Below, piece after piece: positions 3,485 through 47,369 of a stretch of DNA of 60,068 bases. The DNA comes from a virus. Position 1 is the stretch's first letter; every line of letters begins with the position of its first letter. The position numbers were made by a program, and so were the translations under genes. The notes beneath the pieces were generated by a model. It was not told the DNA's origin. It worked only from the letters and a program-made list of their open reading frames with translations, and searched no databases. The stretch spans positions 1 through 60,068 of the IMG/VR virus record IMGVR_UViG_3300009509_000023, one strand, 5' to 3'.

Positions 3485-3930
3485 TGCCAGCAAGACAAAC
3501 GCCAGTACTGGTCAAGCATTGCGCCCTCGCTATTTACAAGAGCGGGTGGTGTACGGGATCGAAGGTGGAGCGAGTACAGCAAGCGTTGGACATCGCTGTG
3601 CACCGTCTGATCGAGTACAAATTTTTGTGGAAGAACGCCGGGAAGGTCGCCCCGGAAAAGATAAAACTCACAGCGAAGGGGCAGAAGGCTGAAGCTCGCC
3701 ATCGAAGGGAGAAGAACGCGAAGATCAAAACAGATGCGTGGAATGCGCTCTACAAGTTGATTCAGGAAGAGGCAGAAGAGGACGACGGTTCAGGAGGCAC
3801 GTCTCAAGAGGCCGGCGATGTCGGAGAGCCCGCGAAAGGCTCGAAGCAGAAGAAGCGCCGCCGGTTGGCGCACTCGGCCAGGCGTCGGCCAAAGAGGGCG
3901 AAGCGTGTAAAGCGTGCCAAGAGAGGGTGA
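3484..3930 (+). CDS. Hypothetical protein with very basic C-terminus
   Basis: A 148-residue protein of unknown function whose start codon overlaps the helicase stop codon. The first 85 residues look helical and globular. Residues 86-115 are acidic and rich in Gly/Ser. The last 30 residues are almost entirely Lys, Arg and Ala, suggesting nucleic acid binding. Its place between helicase and primase implies a role in the replication complex, but no domain is recognised. Confidence 0.6.
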   Translation: MPARQTPVLVKHCALAIYKSGWCTGSKVERVQQALDIAVHRLIEYKFLWKNAGKVAPEKIKLTAKGQKAEARHRREKNAKIKTDAWNALYKLIQEEAEEDDGSGGTSQEAGDVGEPAKGSKQKKRRRLAHSARRRPKRAKRVKRAKRG

Positions 3931-3931
3931 G

Positions 3932-42500: not shown

Positions 42501-43052
42501 ATGGCACGGCCAGTAGCAGAAGACTTTCTTCACTCAATGCGGTTCCACGTGCAAGTCATCGACGGGACATCCCCGTCAGGTGAGCGTTTGGGGCCTCCAG
42601 AGGCTGGATTCTCGATGTGCTCGGTTCCAGAAGCCACGGTTGAGGCCGTGGAGTACAAAGAGGGAACCTACATCTACACCCGGAAGCAACCGGGAAACAC
42701 CACCTTCTCCGACATTTCGATGTCTCGTGGGGTGGCGATCACGGATACGGCTTTCTGGATGTGGATCAAGACGGTCATCGAGGGTTCTGGGGAGTATCGC
42801 GAGGATATTCGCATCAAGCACTATCATCGCGAAGAAGCGCTCGTGGGAAGCGGTGATGTCGGAAAGAACTTGACGGCGATTCCGACGGGCGGGGAGACGA
42901 AAGCGGCGAGGGTATACGAGGTCTTCAACGCGTTTCCGGCTCGCCATAAGGTGGCTGGCGACCTCGATGCGACGGCGTCTGAAATCTCCATCATGGAGCT
43001 GGACCTGTCTTACGAGTACTTCAACCTGATAATCAACGCCTCTACTGCCTAG
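42501..43052 (+). CDS. Tail tube protein, gp19-like
   Basis: A 183-residue tube subunit with GTAGGAGG before ATG 42501. It contains GFSMCSVPEATVEAVEYKEG and TYIYTRKQPGNTTFSDISMS, which match T4-like tail tube (gp19) proteins. Further on are VFNAFPARHKVAGDLDATAS and a closing beta strand. It would form the inner tube inside the sheath. A strong terminator follows. Confidence 0.87.
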   Translation: MARPVAEDFLHSMRFHVQVIDGTSPSGERLGPPEAGFSMCSVPEATVEAVEYKEGTYIYTRKQPGNTTFSDISMSRGVAITDTAFWMWIKTVIEGSGEYREDIRIKHYHREEALVGSGDVGKNLTAIPTGGETKAARVYEVFNAFPARHKVAGDLDATASEISIMELDLSYEYFNLIINASTA

Positions 43053-43074: not shown

Positions 43075-43105
43075 GGCCGCATGCCTGCGGTGTGCGGCCT
43101 TTTTC
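43075..43105 (+). terminator. Rho-independent terminator after the tail tube gene
   Basis: GGCCGCA (43075-43081) pairs with TGCGGCC (43093-43099), followed by five T (43100-43105 region). It is the clearest terminator in the window. It separates the tube gene from the interrupted second tube-like gene. Confidence 0.8.
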
Positions 43106-43136
43106 ACGATGAGCGTTACCTAAGAGTTGGTGTAAG

Positions 43137-43163
43137 ATGACTCGATCGGCGATTACGGACTAC
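43137..43163 (+). pseudogene. Displaced 5' end of the 44009 tail gene (nine codons)
   Basis: The frame starts ATG 43137 and its first nine codons encode MTRSAITDY, identical to the start of the 44009 gene product. The DNA differs at 7 of 27 bases and every change is synonymous apart from ATG to TTG. After codon 9 the frame runs on without similarity to the tail protein to TGA 43260-43262. It looks like the original start of the tail gene, cut off by insertion of the homing endonuclease gene that begins 33 bases later. Confidence 0.78.
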
Positions 43164-43195
43164 GCCTCGAACAAAATTTGCAGTAGACTCGTGGT

Positions 43196-44008
43196 ATGCC
43201 GTTTCAAAAAGGTAATGTCCCGAAGAACAGAATTGACATACCTATCGAGGAGCGAGAGTTGATTTCGAGTCTATACAGTCAAGGGTATAAGATTCGAGAC
43301 CTGTCTACTCGAACAGGCTTGTCTGTGACGTGGTTGTCCGATCATCTGCGAGCGTGGGGTGTGCAAAGAGACCCTGACGCTGTTCGTAGACGACGAAATC
43401 GTGCTGGGAGTTCGGTAGGGGCGGATACCTCTTTTCTGAAATCTTGGACTCCAGAGAGTGCGTGGGTTTGGGGTTTATGGTTTGGAGATGGGTGGGTTCA
43501 GCGCTATCGAGTATCGATGGCAGCGAGCGAAGAAGTCGCTCGGAAGGTGCAGAGGATTTCGGGAGCATCGAGCGCTTTGAATCCTGGGAATGGATGCGTG
43601 CACTTCGATCTTGGTGGAACGGACGCTGTTCTTCTTGTGGAGGATATGTTTGGTTTGCGTCCGGGTCCTAAGTCAGAAGTTTTATCATGGCCTGACGTAC
43701 CCTCGAATGTAGAGTCTCATTTTCTTCGGGGGCTATGGGACTCGGATGGGTCGTTTTACGTGCAGCTTTCAAAAGGTCGCCCTTATCTTGGAACGACGTT
43801 CTGCTCCAAGTCGGCTGCGCTTGTACTAGGAGTCCAGGATGCCGTGAAGAGGCTCGGCGAACAAAGCAGACCGGTTGAACGGAATCGAGGACTGTATCTC
43901 ATACGATGGAACGGTAGGTACGCGAAGAACCTGGGGGCGCTTCTTTATGCTGATAGTGAGGACCCAATGCGTTGCTCTCGGAAGCATGCTATTTGGGAGG
44001 AGGCGTAA
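43196..44008 (+). CDS. LAGLIDADG homing endonuclease
   Basis: A 270-residue DNA endonuclease with two LAGLIDADG-type helices: AWVWGLWFGDGW (Asp98) and HFLRGLWDSDGSF (Asp184). Two motifs in one chain indicate a monomeric enzyme with a long target. The N-terminal 55 residues have a helix-turn-helix (EERELISSLYSQGYKIRDLS). There is no intron or intein: only 32 bases separate the tail gene fragment from the ATG. The last codons (TGGGAGGAGGCGTAA) contain the Shine-Dalgarno for the following tail gene. The gene should spread by cutting uninterrupted alleles. Its codon use looks less GC-rich than its neighbours, as expected of a mobile gene. Confidence 0.85.
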   Translation: MPFQKGNVPKNRIDIPIEERELISSLYSQGYKIRDLSTRTGLSVTWLSDHLRAWGVQRDPDAVRRRRNRAGSSVGADTSFLKSWTPESAWVWGLWFGDGWVQRYRVSMAASEEVARKVQRISGASSALNPGNGCVHFDLGGTDAVLLVEDMFGLRPGPKSEVLSWPDVPSNVESHFLRGLWDSDGSFYVQLSKGRPYLGTTFCSKSAALVLGVQDAVKRLGEQSRPVERNRGLYLIRWNGRYAKNLGALLYADSEDPMRCSRKHAIWEEA

Positions 44009-44791
44009 TTGACAAGGTCTGCGATCACGGATTACCTCCAGAACTATCCGTTTTGGTTGATGGACATCGCTCCAATTGAGCCTCTAGCTCAGCCGCTCTT
44101 CACACCGCTTCTCGGATTTTCCTCCATATCGGCGCCGGAGCTGACGATCGAGATCACGGACATCACAGAAGCAAACTGGTTTTTCAAGCGTAAGGTGGTT
44201 CGTGGCGGCGACGTGAGCAACATGACGTTTGTCAGAGCTTCGAAGTGGTACGACAGCGACTTTTACCGCTGGGCTTTGTCCGCGCTGATGGGGAACACAG
44301 GAGGGCACGGAGGCTCCCGCTCGATGGCTCTTGGAGGAGCTACGCCGAGACGCGACCTTCTTCTCATTCACTTCTTGTCTCGGAGCCCCCTTCCACCGAT
44401 AGGGACTAACGTGGCAGCGATCTCCGGAACACTGGCCATTCAAGGGACCGCTACAGGCCTCGTAGGGGGCGTGTCGAGTCTGGCTAGTCGAGGCTACCTA
44501 GAACACGCTACCGCGATCACAGGGGCCGGTGCGGCGGCAGCAACAGGCGCGCATATGGGGCCCTTCGAGTTCATCCCCAGACTGCCTGCGAAGGCTTGGG
44601 TTCTCTACGGCTGCATTCCGACGCGATACAAGACTGGAGGAGATTTCGACGCCACGGACGCTTCCATATCGCTACAAGAGTTGGAAGTGGCTCTCGAGGG
44701 GTGGGACGAGCTGACGCTGGGGAGCGATGCTGCGCCACAAGCCCTAGGGTTTGCCATTGCGGACGCGGCCCGAACTGGAACTACGAGGTAA
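44009..44791 (+). CDS. Second tail tube-like/virion tube protein with re-created start
   Basis: A 260-residue protein. TTG 44009 follows the endonuclease stop directly and has GGGAGGAGG about 6-9 bases upstream. The first nine residues MTRSAITDY repeat those at 43137 in other codons. The body (ELTIEITDITEANWFFKRKV, then NMTFVRASKWYDSDFYRW, and a C-terminal VLYGCIPTRYKTGGDFDATD with ASISLQELEVALEG) has the strand order of gp19/gp54-type tube proteins and parallels the 42501 product (compare AGDLDATASEISIMELDLSY). It is likely a tube initiator or tube paralogue linking tube and baseplate. Confidence 0.7.
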   Translation: MTRSAITDYLQNYPFWLMDIAPIEPLAQPLFTPLLGFSSISAPELTIEITDITEANWFFKRKVVRGGDVSNMTFVRASKWYDSDFYRWALSALMGNTGGHGGSRSMALGGATPRRDLLLIHFLSRSPLPPIGTNVAAISGTLAIQGTATGLVGGVSSLASRGYLEHATAITGAGAAAATGAHMGPFEFIPRLPAKAWVLYGCIPTRYKTGGDFDATDASISLQELEVALEGWDELTLGSDAAPQALGFAIADAARTGTTR

Positions 44792-45056: not shown

Positions 45057-45620
45057 ATGGACGAAGTTCTGAAGTCAACCCCGAAGGACAGGCAGGAAAC
45101 ATGGGCCACGCGGGTGTGGGAGGCGTGCGGAGGAAGATGTTCAAACTGCGGGTCAACAGAACGGCTCGAGGTGCGGATGATCGTTCCGAAGGAATCGGGA
45201 GGTCAGGAGGTGGTCAGCAACGGCACGCTCCTGTGTAGAACGTGCGAATTGGCTCGGGAGCTGAGCCACAAGCCGGCGGTCTCTGGTGAGAGGACGCGGC
45301 CCATCAACTTTTTCGTCAGCAAAACCCTCCACGAGAAGCTGAAAAATGGGCTCGCGTCGGACTACGGGTTCAAGAGCGTGTCGGCGCTCGTGCGTTTTTT
45401 GATGACGAAGTTTGTCACTCACCCGAGCAGGTTCGACGATCTCGCGATGTACCAGGAAAGCGGATCGGACGTGAAGGTCAACGTTTGGGTCGACCGAGAG
45501 ATGTATGATCGCTTCAAGGCGATCACCGATCGGGACGGCGTGACTGTGACGGATACGCTGAAAGGGCTCATACGCATGTACGAGTCAGAGGCGAAGAGGA
45601 TTGTAGGAAGGACGAGATAA
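45057..45620 (+). CDS. HNH-like zinc protein with two ribbon-helix-helix domains
   Basis: A 187-residue protein with GAGGAGCGAAC before ATG 45057. Residues about 18-65 look like an HNH core (CSNCGSTERLEVRM, then GG and NGTLLCRTCE), but the usual His-His pair is replaced by Arg-Met, so cleavage is doubtful. Residues about 80-120 (INFFVSKTLHEKLKNGLASD) and 138-180 (VKVNVWVDREMYDRFKAITD) look like two ribbon-helix-helix DNA-binding units. It could be a former homing endonuclease turned regulator. The stop overlaps the next start by one base (TAATG). Confidence 0.6.
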   Translation: MDEVLKSTPKDRQETWATRVWEACGGRCSNCGSTERLEVRMIVPKESGGQEVVSNGTLLCRTCELARELSHKPAVSGERTRPINFFVSKTLHEKLKNGLASDYGFKSVSALVRFLMTKFVTHPSRFDDLAMYQESGSDVKVNVWVDREMYDRFKAITDRDGVTVTDTLKGLIRMYESEAKRIVGRTR

Positions 45621-46462
45621 TGAGCGAAGAACATCTGCGGGATGAACTAGCGAAGGGGGCCCCGGTTGGAGGGGCTATCGAGCACATTCACACTGTCAAT
45701 CAGATGGAGACCCCGAAATCGGCGACTGGCGTATTCGAGCTGCCGTGCGGGTATCTCGACCCACAGACACAGGAGCTGGTCACCGAGGTCGAGGTCCGAG
45801 AGATAACGGGTTACGAAGAAGATATGCTCGCATCGGACAACGTTCCGTCGGAGCAGAAAGTGTCGAATCTGATCAGCGGTTGTGTGGTACGCATCGGCGA
45901 AGAGACTCACAAAGGTCGAATTGCCGGGATGCTGCAGAACTTCATGATGGGTGACAGAGTTTTCCTCGTATTCGCGATCCGCCGTGTGACGCTCGGGGAC
46001 GAACTTCCAGTCCGAGAACGCTGTCCCGACTGCAAAACCACCACGCTGTTCATGGTGGACCTCGAAGAAGAGCTTCAACCGAGGGAAATGCCGGACCCGA
46101 GGAAGCGGGTATTCGATGTGCAGCTGCCCTCTGGTTTGTCTGCCCGATTTCGGGTATCGACTGCTGCAGACGAGGTGAATATGGCAAAACTCCGTCGGAG
46201 GCAGAAGCAAAAGTCGGATGTGCTGTCTCAATCGATACTTATGCGATTGGAGCTACTTGGGGATGAAAAGCCCACGCTGAAGATGGTAAAGTCTTTGGGT
46301 ATGAGAGATCGACACTTTCTGCGCGACAAATTCCGAGAGGTGGAAGGCGGGGTGGACACGACGTTGCAGCTGTCTTGCCCTTCGTGCGGAAACGAGTGGG
46401 AGAAGGATCTAGACCTGAGTTCATCGAGTTTTTTCTCCCCTGGGGCTCCGCAGAAGCCCTAG
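45620..46462 (+). CDS. Tail/baseplate assembly chaperone, gp26-like (T4_baseplate family), frame 0 product
   Basis: A 280-residue protein made in frame 0. The region AMETP-like N-terminus is followed by FELPCGYLDPQTQELVTEVE, VREITGYEEDML and MGDRVFLVFAIRRVTLGDEL, which match the T4 gp26-type family; zinc pairs CPDC (about 135-138) and CPSC (about 254-257) are included. Near its end the message holds TTTTTTC, a -1 slippery site, so a longer 341-residue form joined to the next frame is predicted. Its place just before the tape measure gene is that of a tail assembly chaperone. Confidence 0.75.
   Translation: MSEEHLRDELAKGAPVGGAIEHIHTVNQMETPKSATGVFELPCGYLDPQTQELVTEVEVREITGYEEDMLASDNVPSEQKVSNLISGCVVRIGEETHKGRIAGMLQNFMMGDRVFLVFAIRRVTLGDELPVRERCPDCKTTTLFMVDLEEELQPREMPDPRKRVFDVQLPSGLSARFRVSTAADEVNMAKLRRRQKQKSDVLSQSILMRLELLGDEKPTLKMVKSLGMRDRHFLRDKFREVEGGVDTTLQLSCPSCGNEWEKDLDLSSSSFFSPGAPQKP
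46429..46435 (+). promoter_or_regulatory. Programmed -1 ribosomal frameshift site TTTTTTC
   Basis: In the reading frame of the gp26-like gene the bases read AGT TTT TTC, giving T TTT TTC, a canonical X XXY YYZ heptamer. A -1 slip moves translation into the frame that continues without stop to 46644. Frame 0 stops 27 bases later at TAG 46460-46462. Frameshifting before the tape measure gene is a conserved feature of tailed phages. Confidence 0.75.
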
Positions 46463-46670: not shown

Positions 46671-47369
46671 CTACTTCTGGCTACGGTATTTTCCTCGGGA
46701 CCAGTTCAACACGGTAACGTCGGAAACTCCAAACTCCTCGGCCAGGATTCGGCTACTCTCTCCGGATTTGTGCCTGTTGATGATCTCTCGGACAGTATTG
46801 TCGTCGATTCGGGCGAGCACGTCGTCTCGTGTCTGACTGTAGGTTTTAGACGGGGTGATTGGGCCTTCGGCGTGCTTCCAGGTTTTTCCAGTGCAAACAG
46901 ACGAGATACACGCCTGAGTAACTCCGTATTCTTCAGCGAGCGCTGTGAGCTTCTCTCCAGATGCTCTGCGTTGGCGAATATTGACAACGTCTTCAGCGCA
47001 GAGCTTCTCTCCAGAACGACGCCGTCCGAGAACTCTGAAGGCATGAAGGGTGTTTTCTCTCACGGTTACAGCTTCAAGATTTTCCAGACGATTATCGTCT
47101 CGCACACCGTTGAGGTGGTTTATTACATATCCTTTTGGAATCGGACCACGAAAGGCCTCCCACATAAGTCTATGTACTCGCCGCGCTATAGCATGGCCGC
47201 CTGGACGAGACAGGCCGACTTGCGCATAGCCGTCCCGGCAGTATCCGAGTTTGAGGAGTCTCCCTGCTTTGGTGCGAGTTACCGATGTGAGCCGGCGTAC
47301 TCGACCTCGACTCGATATTTCATAGGCCTCCGGAAGTTCTACCACTGGTTTCCATGTCTCTTTAGTCAT
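46671..47369 (-). CDS. HNH homing endonuclease (NUMOD4/HNH), the only minus-strand gene
   Basis: A 232-residue protein on the complement. Residues 5-28 are a NUMOD4 domain (WKPVVELPEAYEISSRGRVR). The HNH core is VHRLMWEAF with His66, then INHLNGVRDDNRLENLEAVT with Asn84-His85 and Asn93/Asn97. The C-terminal 110 residues hold two helix-turn-helix units (LTALAEEYGVTQACISSVC and SRILAEEFGVSDVTVLNWSR). The family is typical of phage free-standing homing endonucleases. It sits between the chaperone and tape measure genes, opposite in direction to both. The overlapping 253-residue plus-strand frame is its shadow. Confidence 0.88.
   Translation of the reverse strand: MTKETWKPVVELPEAYEISSRGRVRRLTSVTRTKAGRLLKLGYCRDGYAQVGLSRPGGHAIARRVHRLMWEAFRGPIPKGYVINHLNGVRDDNRLENLEAVTVRENTLHAFRVLGRRRSGEKLCAEDVVNIRQRRASGEKLTALAEEYGVTQACISSVCTGKTWKHAEGPITPSKTYSQTRDDVLARIDDNTVREIINRHKSGESSRILAEEFGVSDVTVLNWSRGKYRSQK

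Follow-up and report, generated by a model that had tools for sequence, protein, structure and literature searches.

A predicted LAGLIDADG endonuclease gene within the 5' end of a phage tail gene, followed by a second, silently different copy of the gene's first nine codons

The locus described here lies in IMGVR_UViG_3300009509_000023, a single metagenomic contig of 60,068 nt that was analysed over its whole length and is called the window below. A predicted homing endonuclease gene stands between two copies of the first nine codons of a tail gene, and the features of the locus are as follows.

42501-43052, plus strand: tail tube protein gene (T4 gp19 family), the upstream flank (Pfam PF06841, E=5.6e-24; PHROG 4542, tail tube)
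43076-43104, plus strand: terminator-like hairpin with T-run between the tube gene and the tail gene (consensus scan, weak)
43116-43129, plus strand: TTACCTAAGAGTTG, conserved 14-mer marking where the tail gene ancestrally began (one exact copy in the window and in the record of each of five relatives)
43137-43163, plus strand: displaced native start of the tail gene, codons 1-9, MTRSAITDY (from sequence, and from homology and position in relatives)
43164-44035, plus strand: inserted segment, consisting of leader, endonuclease gene and second copy of codons 1-9 (from comparison with uninterrupted relatives)
43164-43195, plus strand: 32-nt untranslated leader of the endonuclease gene, without a strong Shine-Dalgarno (from sequence)
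43196-44008, plus strand: predicted LAGLIDADG homing endonuclease gene, 270 aa (PF14528, E=2.2e-11; phrog_4645, endonuclease)
43994-44003, plus strand: TGGGAGGAGG, putative Shine-Dalgarno for the restarted tail gene, within the last codons of the endonuclease gene (from sequence)
44009-44035, plus strand: second, silently different copy of codons 1-9, with a TTG start (from sequence)
44009-44791, plus strand: restored tail gene, 260 aa, T4 gp19 family (full length relative to its relatives, at 68-76% identity)

The product of the gene at 44009 belongs to the T4 gp19 family (PF06841), and the gene is paralogous to the tail tube gene at 42501 (27% identity); the two gp19-family (tail tube) paralogues, 42501-43052 and 44009-44791, adjoin in this phage group. 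Alignment with its relatives shows the restored gene to be intact and full length. It has no match in annotated phages or in bacterial and archaeal genomes, so the phage appears to have no cultured relative, and the AlphaFold model of its product is nowhere confident. At the position of the hairpin, most relatives have an analogous GC-rich stem-like sequence with a T-rich end, as read by eye. In a distant relative (L010), the tail gene homologue is immediately preceded by a tRNA-Thr gene (3856-3931 of that record), and three tRNA-Ser genes are located ahead of that; no tRNA genes were found in the window.

The first copy of the tail gene start (43137-43163) reads ATG ACT CGA TCG GCG ATT ACG GAC TAC and the second (44009-44035) TTG ACA AGG TCT GCG ATC ACG GAT TAC. 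Both 27-mers encode MTRSAITDY and are mismatched at 7/27 bases, six of them silent and the seventh in the start codon (ATG/TTG), as a preliminary description made from the sequence had reported. That description had also placed the endonuclease gene exactly between the copies; it does lie between them, but the 32-nt leader intervenes between the first copy and the ATG of the endonuclease gene. The two copies share no direct repeat as long as 12 nt. Among about 97,000 8-mers in the six frames of the window, TRSAITDY is one of just 18 that are repeated, and the remaining ones look low-complexity or off-frame by eye. The peptide match scores 47 against a maximum of 38 in 20 shuffles, its second occurrence falls exactly at the start of the homologous tail gene, and MTRSAITDY closely resembles the peptide that opens the tail gene in five uninterrupted relatives. 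Because of this rarity, position, score and resemblance, a chance origin of the repeated peptide is excluded.

Scans of viral contigs yielded these five independent close relatives together with near-duplicates (L004, L005/L006, L007/L008, L009 and L011=L019); a further candidate, L016, was rejected as a chance pattern match in an unrelated phage. In the record of each of the five, TTACCTAAGAGTTG is followed after 4-23 nt by an uninterrupted tail gene whose product opens (M)xRSxLTDY|LQNYPFW (5/5), and none carries the endonuclease. In the window, TTACCTAAGAGTTG is followed after 7 nt by the ATG at 43137. Since the same 14-mer precedes the uninterrupted gene in all five relatives, the comparison identifies 43137 as the ancestral start of the tail gene and 43164-44035 as an insertion. 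The preliminary description had held that a mobile gene inserted itself near the start of an essential gene; for this conserved tail gene the five relatives display the empty site, and the starts of their tail genes match 43137-43163, a comparison on which it had staked that view.

The insertion is 872 bp long (2 mod 3), with edges ambiguous by 3 bases (TAC), and it falls between codons 9 and 10, within the most conserved block of the gene. The insertion point is surrounded by a stretch of residues, T7-F15, that does not vary within the close family, as expected of the kind of site that homing endonucleases usually choose. The reading frame that remains behind 43137 closes at a stop at 43260-43262. 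At the level of sequence the insertion and the restored start are secure; an assembly chimera in this single contig, which would be rare, is the other conceivable origin of the layout. The 14-mer itself is identical in the window phage and the five relatives, between which silent sites are near-saturated, and it always lies just before the tail gene start, so that it looks like a strongly constrained control element. In the L004 record a further copy that deviates at one base, TTACCTAAGAATTG, occurs a short way ahead of the HNH-like gene.

The endonuclease frame contains a TAG at 43184 with no further start codon behind it, so 43196 is its earliest start. Its match to LAGLIDADG_3 is above the cut-off, and the acidic residue is retained in both of its acidic motifs, WGLWFGDG and LRGLWDSDG; by domain match and acidic residues, the product is predicted to be a LAGLIDADG homing endonuclease. 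Its N-terminal region (residues about 17-53) resembles a helix-turn-helix, and the AlphaFold model is confident only for these N-terminal helices. A sequence search of solved structures gave no match, and a search of viral contigs found no relatives of the enzyme; in annotated phages only Staphylococcus phage enzymes of about 26% identity match, many of them annotated as intron-encoded. The 10-mers of the leader are repeated within the window not more often than expected. The gene is absent from ten related records, some of which are fragmentary or near-duplicate, and on this sampling its presence is sporadic at a site empty in relatives, as for homing endonuclease genes.

Two other genes downstream touch on the same subject. 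The gene at 45057-45620, conserved in relatives, fuses an HNH-like zinc-finger part (CxxC...CxxC) to a ParG-like ribbon-helix-helix part, and its product may be a domesticated endonuclease, since the histidines expected of an active HNH site are seemingly missing. A NUMOD4-HNH endonuclease gene (46671-47369, minus strand) runs against the direction of the tail operon and separates the gene at 46375 from the tape measure gene. L005 carries such a gene in the corresponding position and L004 seemingly does not, which gives it the appearance of a second homing gene with sporadic occurrence in the tail operon.

The TAA of the LAGLIDADG gene directly abuts the TTG of the tail gene, and GGAGGAGG lies in the last endonuclease codons, 5 nt ahead of TTG 44009. 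The claims that the endonuclease gene supplies the Shine-Dalgarno of the restarted gene from its own last codons, and that the whole N-terminus is thereby kept without splicing, are both in agreement with this arrangement, in which a second start and a Shine-Dalgarno at the end of the endonuclease gene would restore the N-terminus.

Between the two copies, 5/8 sense codons are spelled differently and 25% of nucleotides are changed, with the same peptide encoded. When sister phages are compared in pairs at identical residues of the tail gene, the differences amount to 40-63% for codons and 14-23% for nucleotides, and codons redrawn from the phage's own usage give a mean of 4.8/8 changes. The proposal that the second copy had been specially recoded is thus not borne out, since its divergence matches what silent change ordinarily produces between sister phages. 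If six changes fell at random, the probability of all being silent would be about 6.5e-5, which indicates that both copies were under protein constraint while diverging, and their silent sites are near-saturated (6 differences over 6.7 sites). Drift over as long a time would have cost a stranded copy its peptide. The remnant has kept its peptide and its neutral divergence since the insertion is at most 0.17 per site, which argues that the insertion is recent. The native copy is nearer than the second copy to each of the five relatives (34 vs 46 differences of 105). Both copies share SAI where all close relatives differ (SNL, SSL, SAL), so donor and recipient must be close in protein. Because the divergence equals the ordinary level between sister phages, the simplest reading is that the second copy is likely a sister phage's allele imported with the endonuclease gene. 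At 27 bp it is too short for a tree test of foreign origin, gene-by-gene identity to relatives gives no sign of how far a foreign tract reaches into the tail gene, and searches of viral contigs found no donor phage with the endonuclease or with a TTG ACA AGG start.

We therefore favour, with a probability of roughly 0.7, the recent entry of a free-standing LAGLIDADG gene between codons 9 and 10 of the tail gene together with the 5' end of a sister phage's gene, the tail protein being restarted intact. The enzyme would cut the uninterrupted tail gene at or near codon 9/10, and repair of the cut would copy in the endonuclease gene and a complete gene start (at least codons 1-9) from the sister phage. 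The native codons 1-9 would be left stranded upstream behind the old start, ribosomes would restart at TTG 44009 from the strong Shine-Dalgarno at the end of the endonuclease gene, and the intact tail protein would be encoded by the imported start together with the remainder of the gene.

One route by which this could have happened, to which we give somewhat short of an even chance, doubles as a rival that does not exclude the favoured reading. In a sister phage, the endonuclease gene may originally have been intergenic, immediately ahead of the tail gene, its enzyme cutting the early codons of that gene in other phages; one-sided, partly illegitimate repair would then have joined the recipient's broken codon 9 to the leader and copied the donor's whole gene start, making the remnant a by-product and no part of a cassette. 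The abutting stop and start and the Shine-Dalgarno inside the endonuclease gene are as in a settled intergenic layout, and T4-type homing has been documented to involve co-conversion of flanking sequence as well as illegitimate, one-sided repair at sites of microhomology (PMC2988022). However, no donor with such a layout was found in the searches, and the precise fit to codon 9/10 on both sides is also explained by a simple one-segment insertion.

Alternatively, the recoded start might be part of a co-evolved cassette that travels with the endonuclease gene, its silent changes giving resistance to the enzyme, as the preliminary description proposed, and removing the homology that would let repair skip the endonuclease gene. 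Native codons at the restored junction would rebuild the presumed homing site, two of the seven changes (-4 and -10) lie within 11 bp of the insertion and so inside a typical 22-bp LAGLIDADG site, and the absence of longer direct repeats between the copies also fits. Nevertheless, this is unlikely, as the divergence does not exceed what sister phages or redrawn codons give. Immunity to cutting by silent changes is possible, because -4 and -10 fall within the typical site, but doubtful, because both are wobble positions, where the LAGLIDADG enzyme I-AniI can tolerate substitutions (PMC3943268), and because -4T occurs naturally in the uninterrupted relative L019. The window case makes self-resistance by silent change testable in vitro. 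More doubtful still is the general proposition that phages host self-complementing homing elements, each consisting of an endonuclease gene, a Shine-Dalgarno and a silently rewritten target start, which enter essential genes at their 5' ends with no need of splicing and whose rewritten start both restores the protein and blocks re-cutting.

An old tandem or target-site duplication followed by drift, without horizontal transfer, would also leave two copies flanking an inserted gene, and we consider it very improbable. A non-functional copy would gain amino-acid changes, whereas there are 0 in 8 codons despite near-saturated silent sites, and the silent-only divergence contradicts such an origin unless strong selection drove the recoding. 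LAGLIDADG cuts leave 4-nt overhangs and no 27-bp duplications, so a target-site duplication is disfavoured. Least probable of all is that the segment is removed from RNA or protein, leaving the upstream start real: LAGLIDADG genes often reside in group I introns or inteins and the flanks do join in frame (TAC|CTC), but an intein, which would be an open in-frame insertion, is excluded by a length that is not a multiple of 3 and by the stop at 43260, and a recognisable group I intron is unlikely since no Rfam intron family matched, either at the gathering cut-off or with E relaxed to 10, the non-endonuclease sequence amounts to only 32 nt ahead of the ORF and 27 nt behind it, which leaves insufficient space for an external group I core, and a full second start with its own Shine-Dalgarno would be needless.

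The favoured reading, an imported gene start behind a recently inserted endonuclease gene, predicts a signature of short, silently diverged duplicate start codons flanking a homing endonuclease gene (HEG), which can be scanned for in all phage genomes. In a mini-survey of 12 contigs with LAGLIDADG ORFs, in which similar peptides were sought on both sides of the ORF, no score exceeded those of shuffles and no second example was found. One candidate, L026/L028/L032 (LSRKITHVSLF / LSNMISHINLF), was rejected because of a TTA start, neighbouring genes on the opposite strand and a score within the null. If true, the favoured reading would mean that an essential phage gene can harbour a homing gene in its coding region without an intron or intein, through restart on an imported gene start.

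Known phage HEGs that split genes include mobE in Aeh1 nrdA and mobA in T4 gene 60 (PMC2988022). Like these, the window case would be a free-standing phage HEG inside an essential reading frame; unlike them, where the gene stays split into separate polypeptides (PMC2988022), here the duplicate start would make the protein whole. We found no description in the open-licence literature of a phage HEG that restores the 5' end of its target. Tremella mitochondrial introns with host-gene duplications are mobile elements that import a foreign part-copy and exchange gene fragments, and they resemble the window case in bringing a foreign copy of part of the host gene (PMC7315562). Their 'N-terminal' copy lies at the element's 5' end, resembles the following exon and has a greater length in insertions close to the gene's 5' end (PMC7315562). 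On our reading of that paper, these 'N-terminal duplications' appear to duplicate the part downstream of the insertion; the 3' part is thus apparently replaced, unlike in the window case, and one Tremella case is truly spliced (PMC7315562). In the case of the HEGs in the intronic rps3 gene of Ophiostoma, too, a protein gene is invaded by a LAGLIDADG gene and a small part of its coding sequence is shifted (Sethuraman et al. 2009, cited in PMC4019555); as represented in that citation, the case differs from ours in being C-terminal and mitochondrial.

The closest parallel is provided by the fungal mitochondrial mORF 'gene hybrids' of Allomyces atp6, Glomus atp6, atp9, cox2 and nad3, Rhizopus atp9 and Mortierella cox2 (PMC3630166). 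The mORFs carry a foreign, silently diverged C-terminal end of the target gene that displaces the native end (PMC3630166; PMC4019555); at the DNA level the inserted ends share 64-81% identity with the corresponding ends in a close relative, and the two atp6 ends share 91% identity in protein (PMC3630166). As in those hybrids, an endonuclease ORF (theirs LAGLIDADG or GIY-YIG) is flanked by the native copy and a second copy of part of the target gene, and the second copy is diverged in DNA and conserved in protein, which points to a foreign donor. In mORF hybrids, however, it is the C-terminal end that is exchanged, which leaves the native C-terminus stranded downstream, whereas here codons 1-9 are replaced and the native start is stranded upstream, in a phage and with apparent reliance on bacterial translational restart. 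Because the N-terminal rather than the C-terminal end is replaced, the window case is, as far as its sequence tells, a variant and no strict member of that class. It is the 5' mirror image of an mORF hybrid in a phage, and if our reading is true, it would extend the mitochondrial 'replacement end' strategy to the 5' end of genes and to polycistronic genomes.
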